A program made the position numbers and the translations under genes. From contig JACMZG010001913.1 in NCBI GenBank assembly GCA_018340805.1, forward strand, positions 13,388,348-13,452,347: 64,000 nt of DNA, read 5' to 3'. The notes beneath the pieces are model-generated. The model was given only the letters and a program-made list of their open reading frames with translations. It did not search any database and was not told the DNA's origin. Positions 2,271-52,600 of this stretch are shown one piece after another; positions within the stretch are counted from its first letter, which is position 1, and every line of letters begins with the position of its first letter. Source of the stretch: Microvelia longipes (Eukaryota; Arthropoda; Insecta; Hemiptera; Veliidae).

Positions 2271-2779
2271 CATGCTGAGTCTATACCACAAAATCTCCGT
2301 CAAAACTACTAATGATTCAGATTGTATCATTAACCCTGTAACCGATTTTTTTGAAATCACTTTACATTAAATACTGATTGTTACTACATTGCTGTCTGTT
2401 GTTTTGATTGTCATAAACTATATTTTTCTGCAAAATTGTCGTCACCATTTCAAGCAAAAGCAATACGAAGGTTTTGGAATTATATTAAAGGTTGTAATTT
2501 CTTACTCTTATATACAAAGTATAATCTGATACTTTAGAAGTATTTTTTCTAAGGTTTCAAAAGAATCATAAGTATAGGCATAAGTTGTATATCAAACCGC
2601 AGAAGTAGAGTTCGAACCCAAGTACAACGTATTAAGTTACCTCTTTTAAATGTCAATTATGTAAAATAGTATAAAACTTTTCTTCCTTTTCTCGTCGAAT
2701 GAGGGATGTATTTATTTTGCAATAACGAAGCTATATAATATATTAAAATCAAACTTCATAATTTTGAATTATTATGAAG

Positions 2780-3350
2780 GGCAGAAGCATGGGCGTCCGC
2801 AGGATTTTTTTCCAGGGAGGGCAAGGATCTTGAATAAAGGGAATGACGCATTAAGGAACATTTCTGACCCCATGGAAGTTGTATGGGATAGAGAAATAGG
2901 AGCATTTACCTTCCCCTTGGTTATAATGAAAAAAGGCGCCAAACACAGGTTATGTAGCAAGGTTGTCGAGTTTGCTTCTAAACTTTCTTCTGTGCTTCTC
3001 GTGATTGTTACATTTGTGGTGCTTGTTAAGTCATTTGTGCTTATTTAACTTTAAAATTTGGACTATACTTTGCCACTTTAGTGAGTGATAAGTTAGGCGT
3101 GTTTTGTTATAACCTTCTCAAGCAATAAACAATAGAAAACCATTGAGAGGTAAGTTTGCCTCTAAAATTTAAGACCTGCGCTGTTATAAGAATTGTAAGC
3201 ATGCGCAGTTTGTACCAAGCATGTGTAGTTGGTTTTTGACGTGTATTTCGTGTTGAATTCTCTCTATTTTTTGGTTTTCGGTGGGGTCACTCATTTGTAT
3301 GGTAAATCGACTTATTGCGTCATCCCCATTATTCAAGATCCTTGAGGGGG
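2780..3350. repeat. Inverted-repeat element with ~40-bp arms
   Basis: AAGGATCTTGAATAAAGGGA then ATGACGCATTAAGG (2822-2858) is inverted at 3310-3345. A third copy of the arm is at 6680-6722. Ends not defined. The small open frames here are not gene-like. Confidence 0.55.
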
Positions 3351-9758: not shown

Positions 9759-9942
9759 TGGATACAAGGTACCTCGGAACTTTTCCTCATCACATTGGAT
9801 TAGCTGGCTCATCCTACCTGCTTTGGGCTCGCTTCGCTTGTCCTCAGAATATACAATTCATCAAATTTATACAGCAACATGTCGGACTCACTTCCGAAGA
9901 CATGCTATACCTTCTCATTAAGGTAAAATGAGGAAAAGTAAA
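9759..9942 (+). repeat. Dispersed family A, internally deleted (~185 bp)
   Basis: Head (GGTACCTCGGAACTTTTCCT) joined directly to the tail (AATGAGGAAAAGTA). Confidence 0.82.
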
Positions 9943-10139
9943 AATTAGCATAAAACTATTATTAAAACAATTTATTGAAGACTGCAGTCCTTTAAAAAAA
10001 ATAAAATATATATAACACAATATAATTGTGCGAGAGACACCTAGGAAATGTAACAAGTAAAATGCAATGCTACATCTGGGAACTGTTCCATCATTCGACA
10101 TTCGTCATCATTGATGGCTCGACATAATGTCATGTCCCA

Positions 10140-10180
10140 CTCTGTTTCGTTACGTCTAACTCATCAGGGCGCCGACAGAG
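10140..10180 (-). ncRNA. Hammerhead ribozyme motif, inverted unit
   Basis: Reverse-complement copy of the same 41-nt motif with all core bases kept. Confidence 0.72.
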
Positions 10181-10508
10181 CCTGAACTCACTCTGACCTT
10201 CAATTAATTCCGAAGAATATAATGTGAAGTACTTACCAGAGACGAGCGGTGCTCTCTTACCGCCATCATGCATGGCAAGCAAAACATATATCATTTGATA
10301 CTACCGAGTACTTTGCTTGTTACATTTCCTAGGTGTCTCTCGCACAATTATATTGTGTCAACTATTCATGTTTTGCAAAACTCGGTAGTATCAAATGATA
10401 TATGTTTTGCTTGCCATGCATGATGGCGGTAAGAGAGCACCGCTCGTCTCTGGTAAGTACTTCACATTATATTCTTCGGAATTAATTGAAGGTCAGAGTG
10501 AGTTCAGG

Positions 10509-10549
10509 CTCTGTCGGCGCCCTGATGAGTTAGACGTAACGAAACAGAG
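10509..10549 (+). ncRNA. Hammerhead ribozyme motif, tandem unit 1
   Basis: In order: CTCTG (stem III), TC (U16.1 and cleavage-site C17), GGCGCC (stem I segment), CTGATGA core, GTTA-GACG-TAAC (stem II), GAAA core, CAGAG (stem III partner). All invariant positions are present and G10.1-C11.1 pair. The stem I segment is a loopless self-complementary hexamer, so it can only pair between two units or two molecules. Folding and activity are inferred. Confidence 0.75.
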
Positions 10550-10824
10550 TGGGACATGACATTATGTCGAGCCATCAATGATGACGAATGTCGAATGATG
10601 GAACAGTTCCCAGATGTAGCATTGCATTTTGCTTGTTACATTTCCTAGGTGTCTCTCGCACAATTATATTGTGTCAACTATTCATGTTTTGCAAAACTCG
10701 GTAGTATCAAATGATATATGTTTTGCTTGCCATGCATGATGGCGGTAAGAGAGCACCGCTCGTCTCTGGTAAGTACTTCACATTATATTCTTCGGAATTA
10801 ATTGAAGGTCAGAGTGAGTTCAGG

Positions 10825-10865
10825 CTCTGTCGGCGCCCTGATGAGTTAGACGTAACGAAACAGAG
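10825..10865 (+). ncRNA. Hammerhead ribozyme motif, tandem unit 2
   Basis: Identical to the first motif, displaced by exactly 316 bp. A transcript crossing both sites would release a 316-nt monomer if both cleave. Confidence 0.75.
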
Positions 10866-11034
10866 TGGGACATGACATTATGTCGAGCCATCAATGATGA
10901 CGAATGTCGAATGATGGAACAGTTCCCAGATGTAGCATTGCATTTTGCTTGTTACATTTCCTAGGTGTCTCTCGCACAATTATATTGTGTCAACATTCAT
11001 GTTTTGCAAAACTCGGTAGTATCAAATGATAAAA

Positions 11035-11185
11035 TATATATAAACTAAACGTTTTGCAGAGTGAAACTCAGCATCATCAAAAGTAGGATATAAAACTTTG
11101 TTATTCTGGTGCTGGAATAGTTTTAATTATGTGCTACTACTGATTATCCAGATTTTCACCCTGCAAGACGTTAAGTTTATATATA
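11035..11185. mobile_element. 150-bp MITE with ~30-bp terminal inverted repeats
   Basis: Left end TATATATAAACTAAACG..GCAGAGTGAAA and right end TTTCACCCTGCAAG..TTTATATATA are inverted copies with a few mismatches. Flanks are A/T only, so the target duplication cannot be read. It abuts the end of the 316-bp array. Confidence 0.7.
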
Positions 11186-11614: not shown

Positions 11615-12418
11615 ATGAAAGAAAAGAAGTCTCTCCACAAAATAAAACTTTATTGGCAAAACGGTTTCAACCTAATTAGAGGCCATCATTATTGCAAAAC
11701 CTAACAAACAAGCAAATAAAATAAGTAAAACACAAAAAATCTTAACAAATGATGAGGAAAAGTATGAAAAGGAGACAAAAATAAAAATACAAAAACGTAA
11801 TGAATAAGGAAAAATAACTACCGTTGAGATGTAAAGAATAAGAGAAGTGAGTCTATGTTTTTTTTATTAGATATGAGAGTCAAACTGACAGTAGGAGGCG
11901 ATGGTGCTTATGGCATAGCTCTCAGAAGGGGGGATGATTCTCCTCTCCCATTTATGTTTAGATCCCCAACTCTATTCTAACTCCTTTAAATCTCCAATTT
12001 TTCCAAAAAGTCCATTTTCCAACCTTTGTTCACAAAATGAAGTCAACCGATTTTATGAGGACCATTAAAATGATCAGCTAACAAATGTTAAAATATAAAA
12101 TTTGTTGTTCACTCTAGATTGGTGTTTCCTCACCCTCGTGATTATGTTCCTCCCTGTTTGACCTAAATATTCCACTTGGCATATGCCACATTGCACCATG
12201 TAAATACCACTTCTGTATAAAGGTGGCAGGGTCTTTACTTTTTTTGTATTTTTGTCTCCTTTTCATACTTTTGCTCATTATTTGTTAAGTAATTTTTTAT
12301 TTTACTTATTTTATTTGCTTGTTTGTTAGGATTTGCACTGATGATGACCTCTAGTTAGGTTGAAAGCACTTTGCCAATAAAGTTTTATTTTGTAGAGAGA
12401 CTTCTTTTCTTTCATTAT
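11615..12418 (-). mobile_element. Penelope-like element remnant with GIY-YIG endonuclease between inverted terminal repeats
   Basis: About 190-bp inverted repeats (11620-11810 and 12235-12415, sharing CTTTATTGGCAAA and GAAAAGTATGAAAAGGAGAC) flank a broken coding region. On the minus strand, 12238-12116 reads GIYMVQCGICQVEYLG then QTGRNIITRVRKH: the GIY..YxG core, the CxxC pair and the catalytic Arg region typical of Penelope-like element endonucleases. Further down, after stops and frameshifts, GPHKIG and FLEKLEI fit the end of the domain. No reverse transcriptase part is present, so this is an internally deleted copy. The right repeat carries a hammerhead-like core. Confidence 0.85.
12338..12380 (+). 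ncRNA. Degenerate hammerhead-like motif in Penelope-type terminal repeat
   Basis: CTGATGA, stem II GACCT/AGGTT, GAAA, then GCACTT. Other copies have a palindrome GCGC here, so stem III is damaged in this copy. Confidence 0.5.
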
Positions 12419-27025: not shown

Positions 27026-27231
27026 TCAGGTAGTTACTGTGGGTGTCTCGTCTGGTGTTTCCTGTAGTGATGTCACGTGGGGTGGCTCCAATTCGGGGAA
27101 TATCCTTGTTAATATAAAAAATGCTACATCTAAACTACTCCAATATGCTGTGTGACTGGTGAATACTGAGTGTATCATGAGTGGACCAGCAGCACCAGTG
27201 GTCTGCACGTAGTCCAATCTGTGCTCTAAAC
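27026..27231 (-). CDS. PAPLA1: DDHD phospholipase exon 10 (D-H-D, C-terminus)
   Basis: Encodes residues 574-640 and TGA. Contains LEHRLDY (D579), VFTSHTAYWSSLDVAFF (H599, D607). It lies 4.4 kb from exon 9 across an intron packed with repeats, but phase and homology both support the join. Confidence 0.94.
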
Positions 27232-30200
27232 CTATCAAAATTAACCAAATATCATGAGGATAATATAATAATATACAGTTCATTTTATATTAGAAAAAAA
27301 AATGAGTATGGGGTACATCGAAACTAAAGTGATGTAGAAATTCATACAGTAGGGGTGGGGGCGTGGGACACAGTGGTCCAACTCCCCCGGAATAAGGTGT
27401 TTTAGATGGGCCTGCTTTAAGTTCACTGTTTCTCCACTAGAGGCAGGTCCGTTCACCTTGTACGGCATATAAAAAATAATTATTTCTAAATTTTCAAGAT
27501 TAAAATTATTTAAAAGGATCTTTAACAATGTAAAAAATCATATTAATTATTTTAAATGTAAAATTTTCATAAAATGTTATAAAAATATAAACGCTGTGTT
27601 ATTTTTAACTAGACCTGATATCATGATAACCAAGACGTGCAGAAATGGAATTTTATTTGCGTGTTTATTGCTATTTTATTTGTTCTTTTAATGGAAAAAA
27701 TGCTAAATTTATTTTATTTTCTAAACAAAAAATCTTATAAACAACTAAAAATGTTCAGAAAATTTGTCTTGTTTACATTCTAGCTTATAGGCGTCTTGAT
27801 TTAAAACTGATAACAATATTGATAACAGTTGTACAAGGTAAAAACTAGCGCTCGGTGCGGTAGTTGATGCAACAAGCCCCTGTTTTTAGGACCACCTCAA
27901 ACCAGGGAGTTAGACCACTGTGTCCCACGCCCCCACCCCTACTGTATGAATTTCTACATTACTTTAATCGAAACTTTACCTCACCACATCGGATTCACTG
28001 CCCTTATTCTCCCTACTTCAAATTCCCTTTGCTCATCCTGAGAATATACAAATAGCCAAATTTATACTACAACACATCTATCGACTCGCTTTACTTGTCC
28101 TCAGTTAATAAATACATTAGTTCTATACCCAGCGGCCACCCATCCACGCACTGAGCTCGCTTGATGCTGCTTAACTCTTATGATCCAACAAAAACTAGAT
28201 ATTCTTGCCGTATTGAAACAAAATTTATTGTATTTATTTATTACAAAAAGGATACACTTGTACCAAATTTCAATTCATTTTAATTATTTTCTGATTTTTA
28301 CAATTTTTTTAAACATATACATGTCATTTGATCAAAAATTAACTAATGCTGATAATAAAATAAAACTTAGCACATATTTTGCACTTATATAAAGTTATTT
28401 GCAGGCTAAATCTCAAACAATTATTTTTACACATGAATTTTTAAAATTGTAGCCAATATAAATTGCTAGTTAATGACATCATAAAAAAAAATATTTTCGG
28501 GATATTAAAAGACCTAAAGATTGATTTTTGTGCCAAGTTACAACTTTCTATCATAAATACCCTGGGAGCTACAGTGATAACAGACACATACACACACAAC
28601 TTTATGAAAACCAATCAGGAGGTCTTAAAACCCCTGAAACGGAAAATTCGGTTGAAATCACAATACTTTCTCTTATATACCTAACATATAATGAGGAAAA
28701 GTACAATTAAAAATTATACAAAAAAATTTTAACAAGTAAGAAAATTTTATTTAATTTTAGATGTTATAAGAATTTTTCTTGATATTCTATTTATGAAAGT
28801 ATTAAATTAAGGAACGTATCAGTGTTCTGCCCCACCAAGTCAAAAAAAAAGTAAAAATACCCCGCTTAGTCAGTAAAAAAGTCAAAACCTATTAAAGCTG
28901 CTATACAGTATATTATACTGTACGCAACAAAGTAGGGTTTTTGAGGGTCTGTAGCGTGTAAACGGCTATATGCACATAAATAGAGAGAAACACTTTATTT
29001 ACAAAAATAAATATAAATACAGTGAGGCTGTCCTTATAATAAGGATTGCTTTATAATACACAGCATACTGATCAATCTTATAGACAACTTTAAAATTTAA
29101 ATTAATTTTTAACCATAAAAGTAATATAATAATAATAATAATGCCCGTTTAGAGCCTTGCGGCTCATCAGGGATAACCCCTGCGAGAACCACCTCGGGTG
29201 GTAGTAGCTACCGTTACGCTCAAAGTTTTTTTCTAAAGCTGGCGATAATTTATCTAAACAATAATTTTCTACAAACTGAGAGCGTAACCTGGGATGCGAA
29301 CCCCAGACCTCCGTAGGTGTCAAAGGTCAGTGAAAAGACTAACGCCTTAACGACCTCGGCCACGGAGGTGGCCAAAAGTAATATATACACTAAAAATATG
29401 TACTGCTCACTAGAATTAAACAATAGAAAAACTAATTTAAAAAAAAAATAAAAAAATAATATTATAATATCTTTAAAGGACGTGCCTTGTAGATCAAAAA
29501 TTATAAAAATAATCTAAATAAGCCTAGCAAAAGTGGAGAAAAAGAGGTTTGAAGTTGTGGGAACTTTTTGAATGTCTTATGTCCGTGTGTAGTCCTACCT
29601 GATAAAATCTCAAATTCGACTTTACTATGCTAAAAAACGGAGCAAGAAACTAAGCAAGTGAGCGCTACATTTATATAAATTGACCCACCTGTACTCTTTA
29701 CTAATGAATGGATTTTGATGTTTGAGGACTTTTGGATTTGTCTGATGCCTTTTAACATTCTTGAATCAATACATCCCAAATTCATGATTCCTATGCTACC
29801 TTAACACTCTTTACAGCTTTATCTACAATACGTATCTTGTTTACTTCTGTTTTTACATAAAACAGGAGCTGTACAAAAAATCATGAAATCTTATCAAAAA
29901 CCACTTACGTGGTAAAAAACTCCCTGCCAAGTCTTTGGTCCAAAAAAGTAGGGACATCAACTTTTCTGTCCCGCCAAGTCATGTCCCTTTTGGGTGGAGA
30001 TGGTCATTGGCGTTTCAAAGTGAAGTTGCTAGGTTGTCAATACTAAAGGGCCTTATTCAAACTGTGATGAGACACTTATTCAAAATGTGACAGTTTGAAT
30101 AAGGCCCTTTAGTATTGACAACCTAGCAACTTCACTTTGAAACGCAAATGACCGTCTCCGATTACGGATATGACAAGGCGGGACAGAAACATTGATTTTC

Positions 30201-41244: not shown

Positions 41245-43742
41245 ATATAAAAATTAATACAAAATTACCTTTGGCAGTAGAATCAGAAAAGATCTCAGAT
41301 GGTTTCTTGCCTTCAAACAAGGAAAGATGGACACCCTCTAAGAAATCAGCTTGATCCTCTTCAAGAGGTTGCCATGTCTCGTAGAACCATGACCCTCGAG
41401 TTATTATAAATTCCTCACCTAAATAGTTAAATTCATATTTTAAATTCTTTCTTTGTACTTACATTTTCATAATGTATAAAAATATTTGTCTGTGTGTGCA
41501 ATTTTATTTAATTAAAATTTTTTTTAATAATTATTTTTGCATATAGGGTAATTTTGCCCTTTTATGAATTTATTTAATTAATAAATAAATACATACATTT
41601 TGTTGGTTTTCCAAAATAATAGAATATCAATGGTTTGAAAAACTGAGAACTCCACATACCCCCTTTATATTTTAAGTCTTTTTTTATATAAATTAATTTA
41701 AATTTTACATAAACTTTTCAAATGAAATTAATACATGGATATATGGAAGGATAAATTAATTATTCAGTAGGCCTTCTGTCTACAAATTAGGCAGAAATTT
41801 CTCCAAGCTGTGATCCCAATAGTTGTTTTAAGAGCGCGTGCTCCAGTAGTTAACACTACATGCGCTCTACGGAATAAGTTTGTTGTTAGTATGGCAAAAC
41901 TACAGTTATTTCCCTACTCCCATAACCCCTGTAGGGAAATAACCTCCTTCCCAGCATTCGTTCACTTCGTTTGTGGTTCTTCTTGTGTTTACATCGTTTT
42001 GTGTTGTGTGTGTTTTGTGAATTGTGTTTGTGTTGGACTGTTAACATTATTATTGCACTCAAATATTCTTTTTTATAACTTAAATAAATAAAAGCATAAC
42101 TGAAACTTTTATTTCAAGGCAGCCTTTTATGTAGCAATTTTTAAGAGCTGTCAAAACTAGTAAACATACAATTCTTTTTTAATGTAAAAACATATGAGTA
42201 CACTTATTATTTCCCTTCACAATTCATTTTTTTCCACATTTGCATACTTCCTAAATAATAAAACTACACAAAAGAAATGTAGAAACATCGCCAAGAAAAC
42301 ACGGGTAACATAACCTGATTTGTTTACAAAGTTTTTTCCCCGCTGCCTTTTTGTAGGGATTTTTTTTTAGAATCGGTGGTGCCTAAACTGAGCTGTCAAG
42401 ATTTTTAAAGTAATCGATACACTGTACTTAGGAGCATTGCTGTATTGGGGTAATCTTTATTAAATAAAAACAACTAACAATATTTAGTAATCACTATAAC
42501 TTACTTCTAATTATAAAATAATGCAAACAACATGGCAGCTCTATTTATATCTTTGTCTTAAAGTTTGACTTTTTAAGTAATTTGTTTCTGTGGATAGGAC
42601 CGCATCCAGGAGGCCCACCTTCTGAGTATAATTATCTAATCTTGATGCTCGTAATAAATACTAAACCTGTAGCAATCCTGAACAAGTTCCCTTGGGTGTA
42701 GGGACCATGTGAAATGTGTTGTGTATTGCTGAGGAACGGGACAAATAAAATGTGACATATACTATTTTTTTTAAAGTTCCAAATGAAGAGAAAACGAAGA
42801 AATAACAATATATACAACAATATAAAAAAACTATAAAACATGTAAAAAATTAAATTAAATAAATATAAGATGAATATATATAAGAATAAATTTATATTGT
42901 CAAGGTATTAAAATATAATAAGAATAATATATAAGAGTAAATGTATTTTACTAAAGTATTTACAATATATGAAGAAATATACAAGAAGAGATGAGATATA
43001 AGAAATATATATAAATTTAAGAACGAAGAAATATGTACAAAGGGAGAAAAAAAAAAATAAAACCTTAAAAGAGTGGGAAAACAAAAAAAGTCTTAAAAGA
43101 GTGGGAAAACAAAAAAAGTCTTATTAGAGTGGGAAAACACTTCCCTTCTAAAAGACACAACTTCTTTGAATGTCAATAAGCCTAGGATTCAATACAAGAA
43201 AGAGCGAACATACCTGGCCAATAAATGGAGGCACATTTTCTGGATTTTATATCAGCTTCATATAATCCACCTCTAACTATTATGTGTTTACTAGACTGAC
43301 CACTATCTCTTCTACTAGACGGTATTTGACTCAGACTGCCTCTTCTATCTTCATTCTCCTGTCTGTCGTTATTCAAGGCACTATCACAACTTTGTTCTTC
43401 AGAACTGTTCTCCGTCAGAAACTCATCCTTGATCCTTCTAAAAGCGTTTTCTAACTGTAATGAATCATACCCACTAAATTCGATCCATGTTTTCCCTGTA
43501 TTTTTATAAAACCATCTGACCTCGCAAGGTATTAAAGCTTCGATTATTTTATTGTCGTGGTCGAAACTTTCATTTTTAGTCTTATGATGAATATTATCTT
43601 CATCTAATAAACTAGACGTGTTTTCGGCTGCATCGGCTTCTAAATTAAAATTTCCACTATTGAACGACAAACTATTGAGTTGCTCTTCAATAATATTAAC
43701 TAATGAGAACGGTTTATTGTCGTTACCTGCAGAATTTAACAT
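27026..43742 (-). CDS. PAPLA1: DDHD-domain phospholipase A1 (phosphatidic-acid-preferring, DDHD1/PAPLA1 type), 10 exons
   Basis: Exons on the minus strand are 43742-43214, 41418-41269, 40912-40781, 38699-38555, 37239-37133, 36165-35912, 35190-35137, 34303-34155, 31823-31627 and 27231-27026. They total 1923 nt, 640 residues, all GT-AG with matching phases. The family hydrolyses the sn-1 acyl chain of phospholipids, preferring phosphatidic acid, at cytosolic/ER-Golgi membranes. Visible parts: WWE-like region around residues 74-105 (EVRWFYKNTGKTW), an RRGSL site near 133, the HGIGQ loop at 301-305, the nucleophile elbow AHSLG at 421-425 with Ser423, and the DDHD residues D502, D579, H599 and D607. 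There is no SAM domain between elbow and DDHD domain, unlike DDHD2. It is shorter than mammalian DDHD1, and extra alternative exons inside intron 9 cannot be excluded. Confidence 0.93.
27303..28704 (+). repeat. Dispersed family A, split by MITE D
   Basis: Head 27303-27324, MITE, then 27967-28704 (TTTACCTCACCACATCGGAT to AATGAGGAAAAGTA). Lies in phospholipase intron 9. Confidence 0.85.
27325..27966. mobile_element. MITE family D copy 1 (642 bp), exact 8-bp target duplication, inside family A
   Basis: Ends TAAAGTGATGTAGAAATTCA / TGAATTTCTACATTACTTTA, flanked by ATCGAAAC at 27317-27324 and 27967-27974. Subterminal G-rich and C-rich tracts (GGGGTGGGGGCGTGGGACAC) pair. It is inserted in the head of a family A repeat, in phospholipase intron 9. 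Confidence 0.92.
29130..29373 (-). mobile_element. tRNA-derived SINE family 1, full copy
   Basis: On the minus strand it starts with a Leu/Ser-type tRNA-like head: A box TGGCCGAGGTCGTTAAGGCG and B box GGTTCGCATCCC (29302-29291). Its body contains GGGTTATCCCTGATGAGCCG and it ends in (ATT)n. Not a working tRNA gene. In phospholipase intron 9, sense orientation. Confidence 0.85.
29946..30205. repeat. ~260-bp foldback, arms ~115 bp, phospholipase intron 9
   Basis: Arms share CTGTCCCGCC, CGTTTCAAAGTGAAGTTGCT and AAGGGCCTTATTCAAACTG with their inverse at 30091-30205. The inner ~63 bp is nearly perfect, with a 26-nt loop. Confidence 0.85.
30225..30520. repeat. Dispersed family A pieces
   Basis: Tail piece at 30225-30286 (CTATATACCCACGATATGAA) and head piece at 30428-30520 (GGTATAGGGTATCTCAGAAC). 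Confidence 0.6.
30664..30735 (-). repeat. Fragment of the 316-bp hammerhead repeat
   Basis: About 70 bp matching 10028-10093 with scattered changes (shared GGAACTGTTCCAT and CACCTAGGAAATGTAACA). The ribozyme part is absent. It lies in intron 9 of the phospholipase gene. Confidence 0.75.
31627..31823 (-). CDS. PAPLA1: DDHD phospholipase exon 9
   Basis: Encodes residues 508-572. Starts LEPLIVRDYARISPLEIHAY and ends in a Pro/Ala/Thr-rich linker. The donor GAG|GTACTC is used here; reading through instead gives GTP and a stop, a possible truncated isoform lacking three of the four DDHD residues. Confidence 0.9.
31885..32562. mobile_element. MITE family E copy 2, phospholipase intron 8
   Basis: Same ends and interior as the 19.5-kb copy, with substitutions. 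Confidence 0.82.
32720..32935 (+). repeat. Dispersed family A, head part
   Basis: GTACGGGTCACCAGGG through TATACTTGCCATATTGAAAC. Faces the inverted copy to its right within intron 8. Confidence 0.7.
32970..33062 (+). repeat. Minisatellite, ~21-bp unit, 4-5 copies
   Basis: Unit GTACTTATAATTGTGTATAAT. In phospholipase intron 8, next to family A copies. Confidence 0.85.
33165..33652 (-). repeat. Dispersed family A, inverted copy lacking the 3' end
   Basis: Minus strand reads GGGTTCGGGGTATCTCGGAA, CGCTTCGCTCGTCCTCAGAA, then the middle of the family to the ATGACGTCAT block. Confidence 0.85.
33656..34090 (-). mobile_element. LINE 3' fragment with CxxC zinc-knuckle segment, phospholipase intron 8
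   Basis: Minus strand reads DSPVCHTCNKIDETVKRILL then DCPKYKTER, as found at the C-terminus of I/Jockey-type ORF2 proteins (CxxC..E.HILL.C). The AT-rich part at 33656-33830 resembles 61852-62040 and is probably its 3' UTR. Confidence 0.7.
34155..34303 (-). CDS. PAPLA1: DDHD phospholipase exon 8 (first D of DDHD)
   Basis: Encodes residues 458-506: LDNFFCIGSPLSVFLAMR and LCNRLYNIYHLTDPVAY. This begins the DDHD domain, with D502. Confidence 0.97.
34355..34660 (+). mobile_element. tRNA-derived SINE family 2
   Basis: A box GGGGTAGTGCACTAGTTAGC (34361-34380), B box GGGTTCAATCCC (34408-34419), then a body with GTACTCATAAACGATACC and GGCAAAATATAGGACCCTC. In phospholipase intron 7, antisense. Confidence 0.8.
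35137..35190 (-). CDS. PAPLA1: DDHD phospholipase exon 7
   Basis: Short 54-nt exon, residues 440-457 (GSSGDGNFIPGKSRLNFE). Phase 0 on both sides, so it could be skipped without a frameshift. Confidence 0.8.
35370..35428. repeat. (TA)n microsatellite, phospholipase intron 6
   Basis: Pure TA tract about 180 nt before exon 7 on the minus strand. Confidence 0.95.
35912..36165 (-). CDS. PAPLA1: DDHD phospholipase exon 6 (catalytic Ser)
   Basis: Encodes residues 356-439. Contains MDIMYYTSPIF and VSVIAHSLGAVIVYDIITGW. The GxSxG-type elbow has Ala in the first position, as seen in this family. Donor ATG|GTAAGT. Confidence 0.97.
36520..36785 (+). repeat. Minisatellite, ~38-bp unit, ~7 copies
   Basis: Unit ATTATATCAATTAATGACAT then ATTGTTTTGTT. 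In phospholipase intron 5. Confidence 0.88.
37133..37239 (-). CDS. PAPLA1: DDHD phospholipase exon 5
   Basis: Encodes residues 320-354 (RVEFFPVEWRSNLTLDG), the conserved FxPVEWR block. Confidence 0.95.
37434..37806. mobile_element. Foldback element with sense hammerhead motif, phospholipase intron 4
   Basis: Inverted arms of about 48 bp at 37434-37482 and 37760-37806 (TTGGTCTAATATCA.. and ..GATATTAGACCAA) both contain the ACGCGTCTGATTTATTTTAT end. The left arm extends into a complete hammerhead core on the minus strand. Confidence 0.7.
37466..37510 (-). ncRNA. Type I hammerhead-like motif with palindromic mini stem III
   Basis: Minus strand: CTGATGA (37503-37497), stem II GGGA-TACT-TCCC, GAAA (37483-37480), CGCG palindrome (37479-37476), U16.1 (37475), C17 (37474), then TG pairing CA ahead of the core. 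One extra T sits between core and stem II, as in the other copies. Mini stem III motifs of this sort are known from Penelope-like elements and are thought to work as dimers. Confidence 0.65.
38555..38699 (-). CDS. PAPLA1: DDHD phospholipase exon 4 (HGIGQ)
   Basis: Encodes residues 272-318. Contains HLVFVVHGIGQKMN, the start of the alpha/beta-hydrolase core. Donor CT|GTAAGT. Confidence 0.95.
39030..39563 (+). mobile_element. LINE reverse-transcriptase C-terminal fragment, interrupted by a MITE
   Basis: Plus-strand frame IEKVQKKFLRIMANKE ... LNSLNM, then after the MITE (39154-39446) VSI*KRRISHDLILLVKI and IINSKIDSSYLLNCV. This matches the region after the polymerase core in Jockey/CR1/RTE-like elements. 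It carries one internal stop and no active site, and is antisense to the phospholipase gene (intron 3). Confidence 0.75.
39154..39446. mobile_element. MITE family B copy 2 (293 bp), inserted in a LINE fragment
   Basis: Same ends and interior as the 6.2-kb copy, in the opposite orientation. Flanked by AAATATGG at 39146-39153 and 39447-39454. Removing it restores a continuous LINE reading frame. Confidence 0.92.
39565..40350. mobile_element. 786-bp DNA element with perfect 32-bp terminal inverted repeats
   Basis: 39565-39596 (starting ACTAAAGTAATATATAAACC) is perfectly inverted at 40319-40350. There is no obvious target duplication. The interior has no convincing ORF. It directly follows the LINE fragment in intron 3. 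Confidence 0.85.
40781..40912 (-). CDS. PAPLA1: DDHD phospholipase exon 3
   Basis: Encodes residues 228-270 (HIDWYSPHEVYLYSQATPSK). Acceptor TTTGCAG. The donor AAAT|GTGAGT was chosen over an upstream TTG|GTATTT because it fits the consensus and keeps frame with exon 4. Confidence 0.88.
40956..41150. mobile_element. MITE family C, one end only
   Basis: Begins CTTAGAATAATAATAATATA and follows the 16.5-kb copy read inward (AATGAAGAAAGATC shared). The other end is missing beside the TA microsatellite. Lies in phospholipase intron 2. Confidence 0.7.
41190..41250. repeat. (TA)n microsatellite, phospholipase intron 2
   Basis: Lies 19 nt past the exon 2 donor. Confidence 0.95.
41269..41418 (-). CDS. 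PAPLA1: DDHD phospholipase exon 2
   Basis: Encodes residues 178-226, including RGSWFYETWQPLEEDQADFL, a conserved family block. A TA microsatellite starts 19 nt into the following intron. Confidence 0.92.
41810..42430. mobile_element. Diverged relative of the 52.5-kb element, phospholipase intron 1
   Basis: Shares several blocks with 52514-52928 (CCCTGTAGGGAAATAACCTC, ATAACCTGATTTGTTTACA, GGTGCCTAAACTGAGCTGTC) but lacks intact terminal repeats. Confidence 0.55.
43060..43140 (+). repeat. ~27-bp tandem repeat, 3 copies
   Basis: Unit AAAAGAGTGGGAAAACAAAA. About 75 bp beyond the exon 1 donor of the phospholipase gene, within intron 1. Confidence 0.8.
43214..43742 (-). CDS. PAPLA1: DDHD phospholipase exon 1 (N-terminus, WWE-like)
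   Basis: Encodes residues 1-176 plus one base. Acidic, Ser/Asn-rich start, then EVRWFYKNTGKTWIEFSGYD and VRGGLYEADIKSRKCASIYW. Donor CAG|GTATGT at 43213. Confidence 0.92.
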
Positions 43743-44289
43743 CCTGTTTTGTTATTTTATCAAATTTTTTATAAAAAAATATTTAAAAAATTACTTACGA
43801 TACCACTAACTCTTAAAACTTAGATCCTAATTATAATAAAATGTCATAAACTCTAAATTAAGTTAAGCTTAAATTAATTAGGTATAAAATCAGGGACATT
43901 ATATAAAAACGTTTGAGAAAAATTTTGAGGAAACTGCGGAAAAATCGAACTTTGAGATGATCTCATGCTTGCTTTAAGATGGATTAAAAAATTCAATAAT
44001 TTTATTATTTTATTTATACTCAGATTCATTCACTTGCAAATAATTAAAATTTATTTTTTATAATTGTATCAAATAATATTGTAATCACCATCAGTAATCA
44101 GTCTCCTAAAAGAAATTAACTTTAAGTTATAAATAATTACAAGTTTATTAATGAAATTATCACCTAACATTAAATTAATTTAAGGCATAACTTGAACCTC
44201 AATACTAACAGTATTTGTACAACCAAACCTGGGTATTAAAAATCGAAAGTTTTTGGAAATTTTGTCGAAAATTTTCCGCAGTTTCAAAA
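43743..44289. promoter_or_regulatory. Shared intergenic region between the divergent DDHD phospholipase and SdhB genes
   Basis: The 547 bp between the two start codons must hold both 5' UTRs and promoters, unless there are unseen upstream non-coding exons. On the minus side an in-frame TAA lies nine bases upstream of the phospholipase ATG, fixing that start. No convincing TATA box could be singled out in the AT-rich sequence. Confidence 0.6.
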
Positions 44290-44346: not shown

Positions 44347-46490
44347 GTAATTATTTTGTTTCATATTTTGAATTCATCTTTTACCTAATAGCGTTACTAT
44401 TGTCGCAGCACCTCGCAGATTAATCTTCTCTAATAATTAGTTGTGAATTATGGATAGGTAGAGTTTTGGCAAAGTTGTCACCTTGACCACTTTCTCAGAG
44501 GTTCAAGATGTTAATTTTGCCAAATTTTGCTTCAATTCGCTTAAAATTGCGTTGAAATAATTTTGGGCGTTGAAAGGAAAAAAGTATTTTATAATATTTC
44601 TATTTTTATAATTACTTTCTTCACTCTTAATTGTCGTCTAATATTACGTAATTAGTCAATTTCTCGGCGTAAGAAAACGGTTGATTCTTAAGCAAATGTA
44701 TGTGTAGTAAAATTTAAGCTGACGTGTTTATTTAACTCAGAAGATTTGGTTTATATGTCTTCTTTGTCAAGATATAACTAGAATTCATTCATTACCAATT
44801 AAATTTTAAAACTATATATGTCAATTACTTAGTACGTTCACACACTCTTCTAAATCCGTGGATTGTATAGAATTCAATATCTCAATACGGAAATATTAGC
44901 TGTATGAATTCTATGCGTATGAAAACGATCACCTGTTAAATACGCTGTGTGCACATAGTAACTATGTACACACAGGGTATTTAACAGGTGATTGTATTTA
45001 ATACAATCTGGACCTTGCACCGTAAGAATTAATATTTGAAAAATTATTTGATGGAAAATACATTAATATTTAAATGAAATAATATTTTGTGGAGAATACT
45101 GTGTGATCGTACCAGAAGGTTTTTGAAACACATTTGGGCTAAGTTATAAGCCATGCAAGCATATCTGTACAATTGCTATGCATACACTGGGTAACAAGAC
45201 TGCTGATCGTACTCAATTCACTAGTTAAACTCCCTGTATGAACTATGTTCCTCTTCATAGTTCATACTATATCCAATCTCATATGCTAGAACAAGAATTA
45301 TTGAATCCAGTCTACTCCACCAATAGGATGTTTAGGCAATAGGCTGAGAGGCAATTTTATTTGACGTATAGCCTTCACTTAAATAAAATTTAGTTTTTCT
45401 GTATACATTTTTAATATATATTTATTTTTATTATTTATCATTATTATGCAAAGGAGTCAGATTTTTTAAAGATATATTTTATAACCTGAGTTTTACCTTC
45501 AATCTTAAAGACGTGTTGTATTGGTGGGTTTTGCTATGACGTCTGAACTAATTGGATCAACTGAACCAATACCAAACCGCAACTTATTAAATGCGATACA
45601 ATCACCTGTTGAATATGCTGTGTGTATGTAGCAAATGTAAGATCAACTAGTTATTTTACTCATGTATTCTAATTTTTCCAGCATGAAAAAATTATTAACT
45701 GCAGGGGTATAAATTAAAAAGTTGATTTGACCTTTCATTCAAAGTTTGATAAGGGTTACTTTTTATCACTCATTGCCCCCCCCCCCTCTCCATAAAAATA
45801 ACTACAGTTAATTTTCCTTTTTGACTGTGTGACTAACAAATACAACAAATGCTTTTTCAACGTACTCAAGTATTTGCCAAGTCTATAGTAGAGGTGGAAA
45901 TCATGAGCTAGTGTTTTATTTATTGGCCCAAATAAAAAAAAACAGATAGCGTTTCTCAGGGGCTTTTATTAAAGAAGCAAGTACCTGGAGAAGCCCCAAA
46001 ATTTTATTGATTCTTTTATTTTAGACTTTAGGACACTGAATGGGACACAAACAAGTTGGTTTGTTGTTTGTTTCCTTCCAATTATGACATTTGTTGTTCT
46101 TTCAGAGTCGAGTGATTCACACAGCAGTCGCACCATGTGCTTCAGCAGCAACAGCAACGCAGTCCAAACCACAGAAAATTAAAACATTTACCATCTATAG
46201 GTGGAACCCTGATAATCCTAAGGATAAGCCTCGCATGCAGGATTATGATGTGGATCTCAATAAGTCAGTGAACATATTTTAGCAAATTTTCAAATAAAAA
46301 ATGAGCTTATGAGATTGGGGGAGTGGGAGGAGGTAGATTTTTGGAGGGGGCACCCTGATCTAGAATATATTTATATATATACATACATACATATATATAT
46401 ATATATTATATATATATATATATAATATATATATATATTAATATTATTTATTTATTTATATATATATATTATATATATATATATATATAT

Positions 46491-49600: not shown

Positions 49601-52600
49601 ATATTGTTAATCAAGTTATAAGGATTTGGTCCTACATAAACATAATACTTCTTTTACTAGGTAATCTAGTGATGAATTCTTGGCTTTTGTGCTCATTAAG
49701 AGATTTAGAATTTACATATCCATGTTATAAGTATACATTAACTTATACCTTTAACATGAATAGGCTCAGTTTTGTGCAAAATACAGTTTTATAGAAACAA
49801 CATCACATTGTCTCATTTCTACCTACTCCATTGCTACTAAACTAATATGGAGACCCATCATACAAATCAAATAATTTGTATTTTATCTATTTTTAGGATG
49901 GCCTTTATGAATGCATATTGTGTGCTTGCTGCAGCACATCCTGTCCGTCATACTGGTGGAATGGAGATAAGTATTTAGGTCCTGCAGTCCTTATGCAAGC
50001 TTATCGATGGGTCATTGATTCCAGAGATGAACTAACTAAGGAAAGATTAGACAAATTAAAAGACCCTTTTTCAGTGTTCAGGTGTCATACTATTCTGAAC
50101 TGCACTAAAACTTGTCCTAAGGTAAGTCCTTTTTATGGTGCCGTTTAAAGTGATGTAGAAATTCATACAGTGGTCAGGTGGCACAGGACACAGTGGTCCA
50201 ACTCCCTGGTTTGAGGTGGTCCTAAAAAAACAGGGGCATCAACCACCGCACCAAGCGCTAGTTTTCACCTTGTACAATTGTTATCAGTGTAAATCGAGAT
50301 GTCTATAAACTAGAATGTAAACAAGACAAATTTTCTGAACATTTTTGTTGTTTATAAGATTATTTGTTTAGAAAATAAGATAAATTTAGCATTTTTTCCA
50401 TTAGAAGAACAAATAAAAAAGCAATAAACACACAAATTAATTTCCATTTCTGCATGTCATAGTTATCATGATATCAGCTCTAGTTAAAAATAACACAGCG
50501 TTTATATTTTTATAACATTTTATGAAAATTATACATTTAACACACATCTAAACATACATCTTGAATAAGATTTCTAACATTGTTAAAGATCTCTTTAAAT
50601 AATTTAAATCCTGGAAATGAAGAACTAATTATGTTATATATGTCGTACAAGGTGAACCGACCTGCCTCTAGTGAAGAAATGGTGAACTTAAAGCAGGCCC
50701 ATCTAAAACAGCTGTGTCCCGTGCCCCCACCCCTACTGTATGAATTTCTACATCACTTGAGTGCTGTTATTTCATGAAATAACTAAAGGCTTATTAAAAA
50801 ATTGTCTCTCTACTGATAATTAATCATATAAACAGCTTTCAATCTTAACTATCAGTGTCCAACCAACAAAGTACCAAAACAAAAAAATGGGGTACAGGGT
50901 ACCTCGGAACCTTTCTTTCCTACTTCGGATTAATGTGCTCATCTTCAGAATATAAAAATCTCGCTTCTCTCGTTGGCAGATAGTAAATATATTTGTTTCA
51001 ATCCTAGTGGTCACCAATCCAGGCACTGATCACGCTTCATACTACTTAACTTTTATTATCCAATAAAAACCATAGATATACTTTTCATATTATAATGTAA
51101 CTTAGTATACTTAATTATTATTTAACACTTTCGCTGAATTTCTTCTCAATTAGATTATATTCCGATATAATACATTTTTTTTTAAACACATAAACAAGTC
51201 TTTTAATAAAAATTAAACATTTTTATTGACAATGTGATGTGACTTGGCACATATGTTAAACTTATATAGTGTGTCCCCAAATGGGGTTGCCTATACGTGG
51301 AAATGACAAAAAATTTTATTTGTCGAAAAAAATCGTTCTTGATAAAAGCTCCTGCATGTTTTTAAACAACATTTTTAATTTTTTTTTATTTTTAATGGTA
51401 GACTCAAAAACTGCAATTTTTGAAAAATTGACGAAGAGTAAAGTAGGCTTAATTTTGACTTTTCGAAAAAAGTATTCTTCATAAAATTGTTTAATTGTCC
51501 CCCTGAAACAATTTTACCATAAAAAAATTAAAATAAAAATGTTCAAAATTTACCCATTTTACCAAATTTTTGAAAAATTAAAAGTTGTTCAATCTGGATA
51601 AATGATACATCGTTTTAAAGGTCTTGACTAGTGGAACAAAAATGGTAGTACTGTAAACTTCAATTTTTACTTTTCCTTTATACCTACGGTATTAATGAGG
51701 AAAAATTCAAATAAAATTCAATAATTTTTGAATGTACCATTTATTATCAATTAAAAGTATTTATACCTTTTTATTGTGTTTATATTGATTTATAAGGTCA
51801 GGTTAAGTTAATAAGTATATTAACAACCTAGGGGCAAAGACATTGGAAGTACACATCCACAAAATTGTACAATGAACTACCAGATAACATAAATTTTAAT
51901 ATAACTAAAGAAAATTACAAAAACAAAATTAAAATTATTCTTATTGATAGACAATACAATGCATATTTAAAATCCGTATAAGTAAAAAATTAACAAAAAA
52001 TTATTTTAGTGGGAAATTGAAATATTTCTTATGTAGATATATATATTTAAAAGAAAATAGTACTGAAAGATAGATGACTAGATATTTCTTTACATTAGTA
52101 TAAGAAAACAACAGGCTCTTTGCAACACAAGACTAATGTCTTACAGCAGAGAGTATTTTCCTATATGCTGATTGTAACTGATCTGCAATATTTATTTAAT
52201 AAATGGATAATTTTGCATATTTCATATGTTTTTGTGTCATCATCACACCTACCAGTGTATTTTTGCTAGAGGTTAAAAATTGGGAAGAAAAATCTCTAAA
52301 AAATAGAAAACTTGTTTTGATTAATGCGGAATACAGAGAATACTCTGTACACTGAGTACAATGTATACTCTGTACATGAAGTAAAAGCAGTTCTAACTTT
52401 ATCCTAAGCCTGTGTCACTTATCTTTTGTTTATAGAGAAATAAACTAATCTTAATATCGATTTGGTATGAATTTACACGTTTTCACATTTGACAAATGAC
52501 TGTTTCATTTTATCACTACAGTCTATCGTTTAGTTTAAAAATCCCCAAGGTCATAAGTATTTTGGGGATTGACCAATCAGAGAAGCCTCTGCCAACCTCT

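Follow-up and report, generated by a model that had tools for sequence, protein, structure and literature searches.

The array at positions 10014–11031 of the window (the whole 64,000-nucleotide stretch of Microvelia longipes DNA analysed here) is likely a single insertion of a retrozyme-like, non-coding retroelement of high copy number, which would have been moved by Penelope-type machinery through the steps proposed below. The original prediction had called this array retrozyme-like. The part of that claim that stands is a dispersed, non-autonomous retroelement with a hammerhead, as indicated by 3,876 genome matches, target-site duplications and fixed starts of reverse transcription; the part that does not fit is the form, since the ribozyme is of type III and 8 of 13 sampled insertions are head to head.

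Architecture of the insertion and its family

The array is a single insertion made of an inverted 295-bp arm followed by 2.3 direct units of 316 bp. With positions in the unit (u) numbered from u1 = 10312, its parts, and an older copy elsewhere in the window, are as follows.

10001–10015, flanking direct repeat, left copy: ATAAAATATATATAA, an exact match to 11029–11043; its last bases overlap the element
10015–10309, minus strand, inverted arm: u69–316 plus u1–47, sense on minus, with its outer sense 3′ end at u47
10310–10316, head-to-head junction: 2 extra bases plus TTTGC/GCAAA microhomology, from the alignment
10312–10627, plus strand, direct unit 1: 316 bp
10343–10357, plus strand, hairpin u32–u46: immediately ahead of the first group of arm ends, most of them at u47–u51
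10389–10400, plus strand, hairpin u78–u89: immediately ahead of the second group of arm ends, most of them at u88–u92
10628–10943, plus strand, direct unit 2: 100% identical to unit 1
10944–11031, plus strand, partial direct unit 3: ends at u89, its outer sense 3′ end, with the tail; one base deleted relative to the unit
11029–11043, flanking direct repeat, right copy: ATAAAATATATATAA
30664–30733, minus strand, older shortened family copy: u287–316 plus u1–40, 70 bp, 91% identical, without the hammerhead

Much of what the original prediction said about the repeat itself held up. Its two complete direct units do follow an exact 316-bp period, and their complete identity bears out the near-identity of copies that it described; a partial third copy is also present downstream of them. 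The inverted unit is there, 99–100% complementary to the direct units, and the diverged fragment placed about 20 kb away is the older copy listed above. The unit was said to have no open reading frame, and no frame of at least 85 aa lies inside it; an 86-aa frame (9844–10104, minus strand) overlaps the element's left edge and continues into the flank. The G+C content of the unit is 0.42, u51–u92 forms a tail-like extension of it, and the fold energy of the circular unit is mildly low (z −1.9), a value that we do not use as evidence. Matches of the array to Rfam microRNA-type models were set aside, as we read them as the inverted repeat. Two other hairpins in the window (30011–30144 and 44913–45007) match microRNA models on both strands, below the family cut-offs, and are possibly inverted-repeat elements. 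Exons of a DDHD/WWE phospholipase-like gene lie at 27026–27289 and 43182–43751 (minus strand), the 316-bp element being about 16 kb past the DDHD exon.

Both the flanking direct repeat and the geometry of the insertion were absent from that earlier description. Up to three bases of the 15-bp repeat ATAAAATATATATAA are shared with the element, which makes the target-site duplication 12–15 bp long. A 15-bp run at the same spacing occurred in 1 of 20,000 random pairs of sites; when both sites were AT-rich, the figure was 65 of 5,000.

The wider family was sampled in 364 kb of contiguous DNA, consisting of the window plus 300 kb, with 24,612 masked bases. This stretch holds 13 insertions, eight of which have two opposed (head-to-head) arms. 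Nineteen of the 20 measured arms end at u38–56 (n = 9) or u88–97 (n = 10), two zones that together span 9% of the unit; the alignment of the remaining arm is broken. Arm 347077, whose second piece ends at u93, was left out of the end clusters, the split copy at 50435–50572 (pieces ending at u61 and u95) was left out of the measurement, and the ends read as u38 and u56 are probably u50, judged by their flanks. The commonest ends in the family are u50 and u92, about 42 nt apart. Seven of the eight opposed pairs have one end of each kind, and the remaining pair has two late ends. In the window element, both outer ends and the stop of the inverted arm coincide with the 3′ feet of small hairpins (u32–46, u78–89 and u59–70), which cover 5% of positions. 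We rejected this coincidence as a rule for the family, as it is confined to the window element and the commonest ends, u50 and u92, lie 3–4 nt past the feet.

Target-site duplications of 9–15 bp directly abut the ends in five of the seven head-to-head pairs that were scored, a length of 9 bp being reached in 37 of 5,000 random placements. Of the other two scored pairs, one has 11 bp a few bases off and one has no duplication; the eighth pair (insertion 349794), left out of the scored test and viewed alone, has 8 bp. Copies in the family sit between short target-site duplications of 8–15 bp, mostly AT-rich; each arm starts, in terms of the sense RNA, within either of two narrow zones, and in most sampled insertions both target ends have been extended, giving two head-to-head arms. 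One insertion has its two arms separated by a foreign segment that carries inverted ends (L266:7258–7605); the translation of this segment resembles, by eye, an open reading frame at 2665–3048 of the window, and the segment may be a captured or nested element.

Searches of the window's own genome (664.6 Mb) show how far the family extends. The hammerhead motif with any six bases in helix I has 3,876 matches (1,878 and 1,998 on the two strands), the motif with GGCGCC exactly in helix I has 3,275, and a 24-mer from the tail (u58–81, up to two mismatches) has 11,162; the controls for the first and last searches gave 0. Among the first 100 motif matches listed, 59 of 70 loci hold a single match, as scattered insertions would. 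Opposed neighbours within 1.2 kb run minus-then-plus in 9 of 9 cases for the ribozyme and in 7 of 8 for the tail, each among the first 100 matches listed; the exception (C505:2619377/2619787) runs plus-then-minus. Longer arrays also occur. At C505:5932901–5938082, nine listed motifs on the minus strand are followed by five on the plus strand, mostly at a spacing of about 316 bp, and at C505:7031832 thirteen motifs on the minus strand are spaced by 309–316. These two arrays suggest many laps around a template, with later array growth also possible.

A type III hammerhead with a palindromic helix I

The original prediction stated that each unit carries every invariant base of the hammerhead. This is so: the core occurs three times in the array, and each occurrence keeps all of the invariant bases examined (CUGANGA…GAAA, A15.1–U16.1 and H17).

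10508–10550, plus strand, hammerhead of unit 1: helix III 10509–10514/10544–10549, predicted cut after C10515
within it, plus strand: helix I GGCGCC 10516–10521, core 10522–10528, helix II 10529–10540
10824–10866, plus strand, hammerhead of unit 2: predicted cut after C10831
10139–10181, minus strand, hammerhead (type III) of the inverted arm: predicted cut between 10174 and 10173, RF00008 37.0 bits

In unit 1 the order is CTCTGT (helix III), C17, GGCGCC, CTGATGA, GTTA-GACG-TAAC (helix II), GAA and ACAGAG (helix III). Helix III, at 6–7 bp, and helix II, at 4 bp with the loop GACG, are both sound, and because the open helix is III the hammerhead is of type III. The claim of three base-paired arms, however, fails for a single copy: helix I is a GGCGCC without a loop and cannot close within one copy. 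Since this hexamer is its own complement, two copies can close helix I, and only if they pair is the core surrounded by three helices.

The covariance-model check proposed with the original prediction gave a divided answer. The Rfam model Hammerhead_3 aligns with the motif over its whole length (E 2.4e-4 for the 64-kb window), but its 37.0 bits fall below the gathering score of 48.5, so that a default Rfam scan lists nothing. By chance, 0.007 motifs are expected per copy of the window, counting both strands, as estimated from 300 first-order Markov copies of the 64-kb sequence. Relatives were also sought in sequence databases with a looser pattern (six bases between the cut site and CTGATGA), which gave 90 stretches in viral_contigs and at least 117 in genome_contigs. 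None of these 207 listed matches to a core with a six-base helix I has at least three further pairs in helix III plus at least three pairs in helix II, and two have two further pairs in helix III. The exact 16-mer GTCGGCGCCCTGATGA was considered as a marker of relatives and rejected: of its 38 stretches in viral_contigs, the 36 viewed in context, 7 of them with GAAA nearby, look by eye like coding coincidences. In the same database a conserved 17-mer of the unit occurs in 14 stretches and a conserved 18-mer in none.

The palindrome is not peculiar to the window. Of the 15 rows aligned from the sampled DNA, to which the window element contributes three, ten keep GGCGCC, three differ and two are truncated there. 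Together with the genome-wide counts of GGCGCC, this indicates that the loopless palindrome characterises the family and did not arise by a local deletion. Divergence among dispersed copies is as high inside the hammerhead as in the rest of the unit (22/454 versus 150/3,060), and hence we see no selection on the ribozyme after insertion.

We calculated folds to ask what a two-copy hammerhead would involve. In an RNA of two units, the double hammerhead with a shared helix I is nested and has an energy of −192.6 kcal/mol, compared with −188.2 kcal/mol when helix I is open and −183.8 when each copy has a one-pair helix I. The hammerhead is not the best fold, as the unconstrained RNA reaches −196.6, and the isolated 46-nt motifs likewise have best folds that are not hammerheads (−33.6 versus −27.7 for two, −12.0 versus −6.1 for one). 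In the free ensemble of the two-unit RNA, the probability that the two helix I hexamers pair is about 0.001, whereas that of helix III of the first copy pairing inside this copy is about 0.8, which counts against the dimer. Because standard energies ignore the tertiary core, these calculations speak to feasibility only. We predict that the hammerhead of the 316-bp family is probably dimer-dependent.

Template, mechanism and alternative explanations

The arms carry information about the RNA that was copied. Among 19 of the 20 measured arms, 12 cross the predicted cut, whereas the other seven stop short of it and are silent on the template; five are longer than one unit, and none starts within 5 nt of the cut. 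Because no arm stops at the cut and five exceed one unit, the usual template was circular or multimeric, and a linear cut monomer is unlikely. A circle would be the simpler source of such a template, with uncut multimers as a possible one.

These observations fit a scheme in which tandem transcripts would be cut by the hammerhead into 316-nt monomers, two ribozyme copies having to pair GGCGCC with GGCGCC for their cores to be active. A cellular ligase would close the monomers into circles, which, having one ribozyme each, would be hard to cut a second time. Supplied in trans, a Penelope-like reverse transcriptase/endonuclease would nick both strands of AT-rich DNA and copy the circle, or else an uncut multimer, from both 3′ ends, starting beside the two small hairpins. 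The Penelope-like scars of the insertions suggest that this is the type of machinery that spreads the 316-bp element. We tentatively propose a more specific version, to which we give somewhat less than an even chance: two-way rolling-circle reverse transcription, in which the Penelope-type protein nicks both strands and the 316-nt circle is copied for many laps, giving arms of up to nine-plus units, while a ribozyme active only when two units meet acts as a one-way valve by which multimers are cut and circles are spared. Counting against the scheme, a transcript of the locus that includes the inverted arm would also fold into a long hairpin.

The nearest competitor dispenses with the circle. 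Uncut linear multimer transcripts could have been the template, leaving the hammerhead idle or only trimming 5′ ends, and we regard this as unlikely, though a serious alternative. In its favour, mutating the ribozyme of the Penelope element PAc does not abolish insertion, and in vitro the template used is predominantly unprocessed RNA (PMC11167929, in the part available). The arms that cross the cut site are as expected from such a template, as are the varied spacing within one array (309–316, as if copied from a mixed source) and the lack of constraint on the ribozyme in dispersed copies. However, the arms of nine-plus units at C505:5932901 and C505:7031832 would need equally long transcripts that stayed uncut despite the kept motif, unless unequal crossing-over later lengthened them, which could explain these arms as well. 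If tandem growth by unequal crossing-over, or a transposase, accounted for the whole family, the element would be ordinary satellite DNA or a DNA fold-back transposon with a hitchhiking hammerhead. The tandem period and long inverted arms are what this predicts, and DNA fold-back elements also have opposed arms; we nevertheless consider it highly improbable, given the target-site duplications, the scattered insertions with one motif match at most of the loci listed, and outer ends that differ (about u50 versus about u92 in seven of eight pairs), unlike terminal inverted repeats. LINE twin priming also yields inverted 5′ segments and duplications of similar length, and reverse transcriptase reading frames matching RVT_1 are present in L282 and L284. 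That LINE machinery made these insertions in place of Penelope-type machinery is nonetheless a poor prospect: no poly-A or simple tail was seen at the insertion ends viewed, and only Penelope-like elements are said to have a tail between two internal start sites (PMC11167929, in the part available).

Sequences of the Penelope type, our preferred mover, also lie close by. By our reading, the window contains five minimal type I hammerhead motifs of Penelope type.

12338, plus strand: CTGANGATG…GAAA with a decayed palindrome
25030, minus strand: CTGANGATG…GAAA with the perfect palindrome AGCGCT
26647, plus strand: CTGANGATG…GAAA with the perfect palindrome AGCCGGCT
37503, minus strand: CTGANGATG…GAAA with the perfect palindrome ACGCGT
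63551, plus strand: CTGANGATG…GAAA with the perfect palindrome ACGT

A palindrome scan of the window gave six matches (63551, 37503, 26647, 25030, 33495 and 58305) versus 0.34 expected; inverted repeats contain or flank the sites at 12338, 25030 and 37503. Across the 364 kb, the regular expression for the Penelope-type motif has 14 matches. Another Penelope-type family, with the hammerhead CTGAAGATGC…GAAACGTCGGAT, is found at 294527 (minus), 294578 (plus) and 172498 (minus) of the 364-kb stretch and is also arranged head to head. A broken reverse transcriptase occupies several frames of L285:2407–4233 (minus strand); a grasshopper (Schistocerca) protein is among its relatives, and a Pfam search of it found no domain. 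A separate protein search had one named hit, from Apolygus lucorum, at 36% identity.

Such neighbours raise the question of whether the unit is itself the pseudo-LTR (pLTR) of an autonomous Penelope-like element of this genome, its copies being solo pLTR insertions and not an independent retrozyme. The broken frames in L285 carry what we take to be a Penelope-like motif, and the insertion geometry and the tail are as reported for Penelope-like elements in the accounts available in part. We still judge this improbable. The hammerheads reported for Penelope-like elements are minimal and of type I, and the PAc reading frame begins at stem II (PMC11167929, in the part available), whereas the motif of the unit is of type III and no ATG follows its core. 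Moreover, the 316-bp unit shares no sequence beyond 13-nt matches with 13 Penelope-type motif regions, and the motif spacing of about 316 in the arrays is too tight to leave room for a reading frame.

Comparison with known systems

The published accounts compared here were available in part, and the likenesses drawn are to what those parts describe. The animal retrozymes described in PMC7229834 have hammerheads of type I, and those of plants have type III within LTRs; the Methods of the same paper include type III motifs in its search of metazoan genomes, and the available part reports none in retrozymes (PMC7229834). Like the animal non-LTR retrozymes described there, the family has a non-coding unit within 150–450 bp (316) with G+C below 50% (42%), dispersed tandem copies with a hammerhead in each, target-site duplications longer than 4 bp (though one of the eight head-to-head pairs has none) and co-existence with Penelope-type hammerheads. 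It differs from them in its type III hammerhead with a loopless, palindromic helix I and in that 8 of 13 insertions are head to head (PMC7229834). With the plant LTR retrozymes (PMC4918200) it shares a type III hammerhead in a non-coding retroelement (PMC7761336); in contrast to them, no LTR arrangement is seen, the target-site duplications are 8–15 bp and not 4, and the unit is 316 bp and not 600–1000 bp (PMC7761336).

A parallel to the ribozyme exists in amphibians. In the axolotl, a weak helix III bearing a palindromic tetraloop is linked with the activity of the dimer (PMC7229834). The newt and axolotl hammerheads resemble ours in having a weak helix closed by a palindrome, and dimers are the more active form there, as is predicted here; however, they are type I motifs with the palindrome in helix III, and ours is a type III motif with the palindrome in helix I (PMC7229834, PMC6155905). 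The family is a candidate for a natural hammerhead whose dimerising palindrome has shifted out of helix III into helix I. Type III topology is known in animals from delta-like agents, termites and dipterans, but those motifs have longer-than-usual helices I and II plus a pseudoknot, whereas here helix I has no loop (PMC7936874). In the literature searched we found no description of an animal type III hammerhead with a loopless palindromic helix I; because unpublished type III work in insects is mentioned (PMC7761336, PMC7936874), we cannot claim priority.

The insertions have their parallel in Penelope-like elements, which are named as no more than a strong candidate for moving animal retrozymes, because the two share type I motifs, both form tandem copies and they co-exist (PMC7229834). 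Reverse transcription of these elements starts internally at two adjacent sites, most often at an AC-rich stem-loop, and a tail of 30–40 bp between the two start sites occurs in a fraction of genomic copies; cleavage is at AT-rich targets, and both strands are cut and extended (PMC11167929). Direct pLTRs are joined head to head to an inverted pLTR, with target-site duplications of 8–10 bp in the cases shown (PMC3846280). The 316-bp family has the same direct and inverted copies, duplications of similar length and two start sites about 40 nt apart (PMC3846280, PMC11167929), as well as the 30–40 bp tail, a stem-loop at the start site, AT-rich targets and extension of both strands (PMC11167929). 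Unlike Penelope-like elements, its unit has no reading frame for a reverse transcriptase (with or without GIY-YIG) or an endonuclease, and in place of a minimal type I motif in the pLTR it has a type III motif with the palindrome in helix I (PMC11167929).

Judged by its sequence, the 316-bp family looks like a retrozyme and appears to have been inserted like a Penelope-like element, while failing one published feature of each. In most sampled copies it bears the reported Penelope signature of two starts, a tail and both target ends extended, and this makes the question of what moves retrozymes directly testable.
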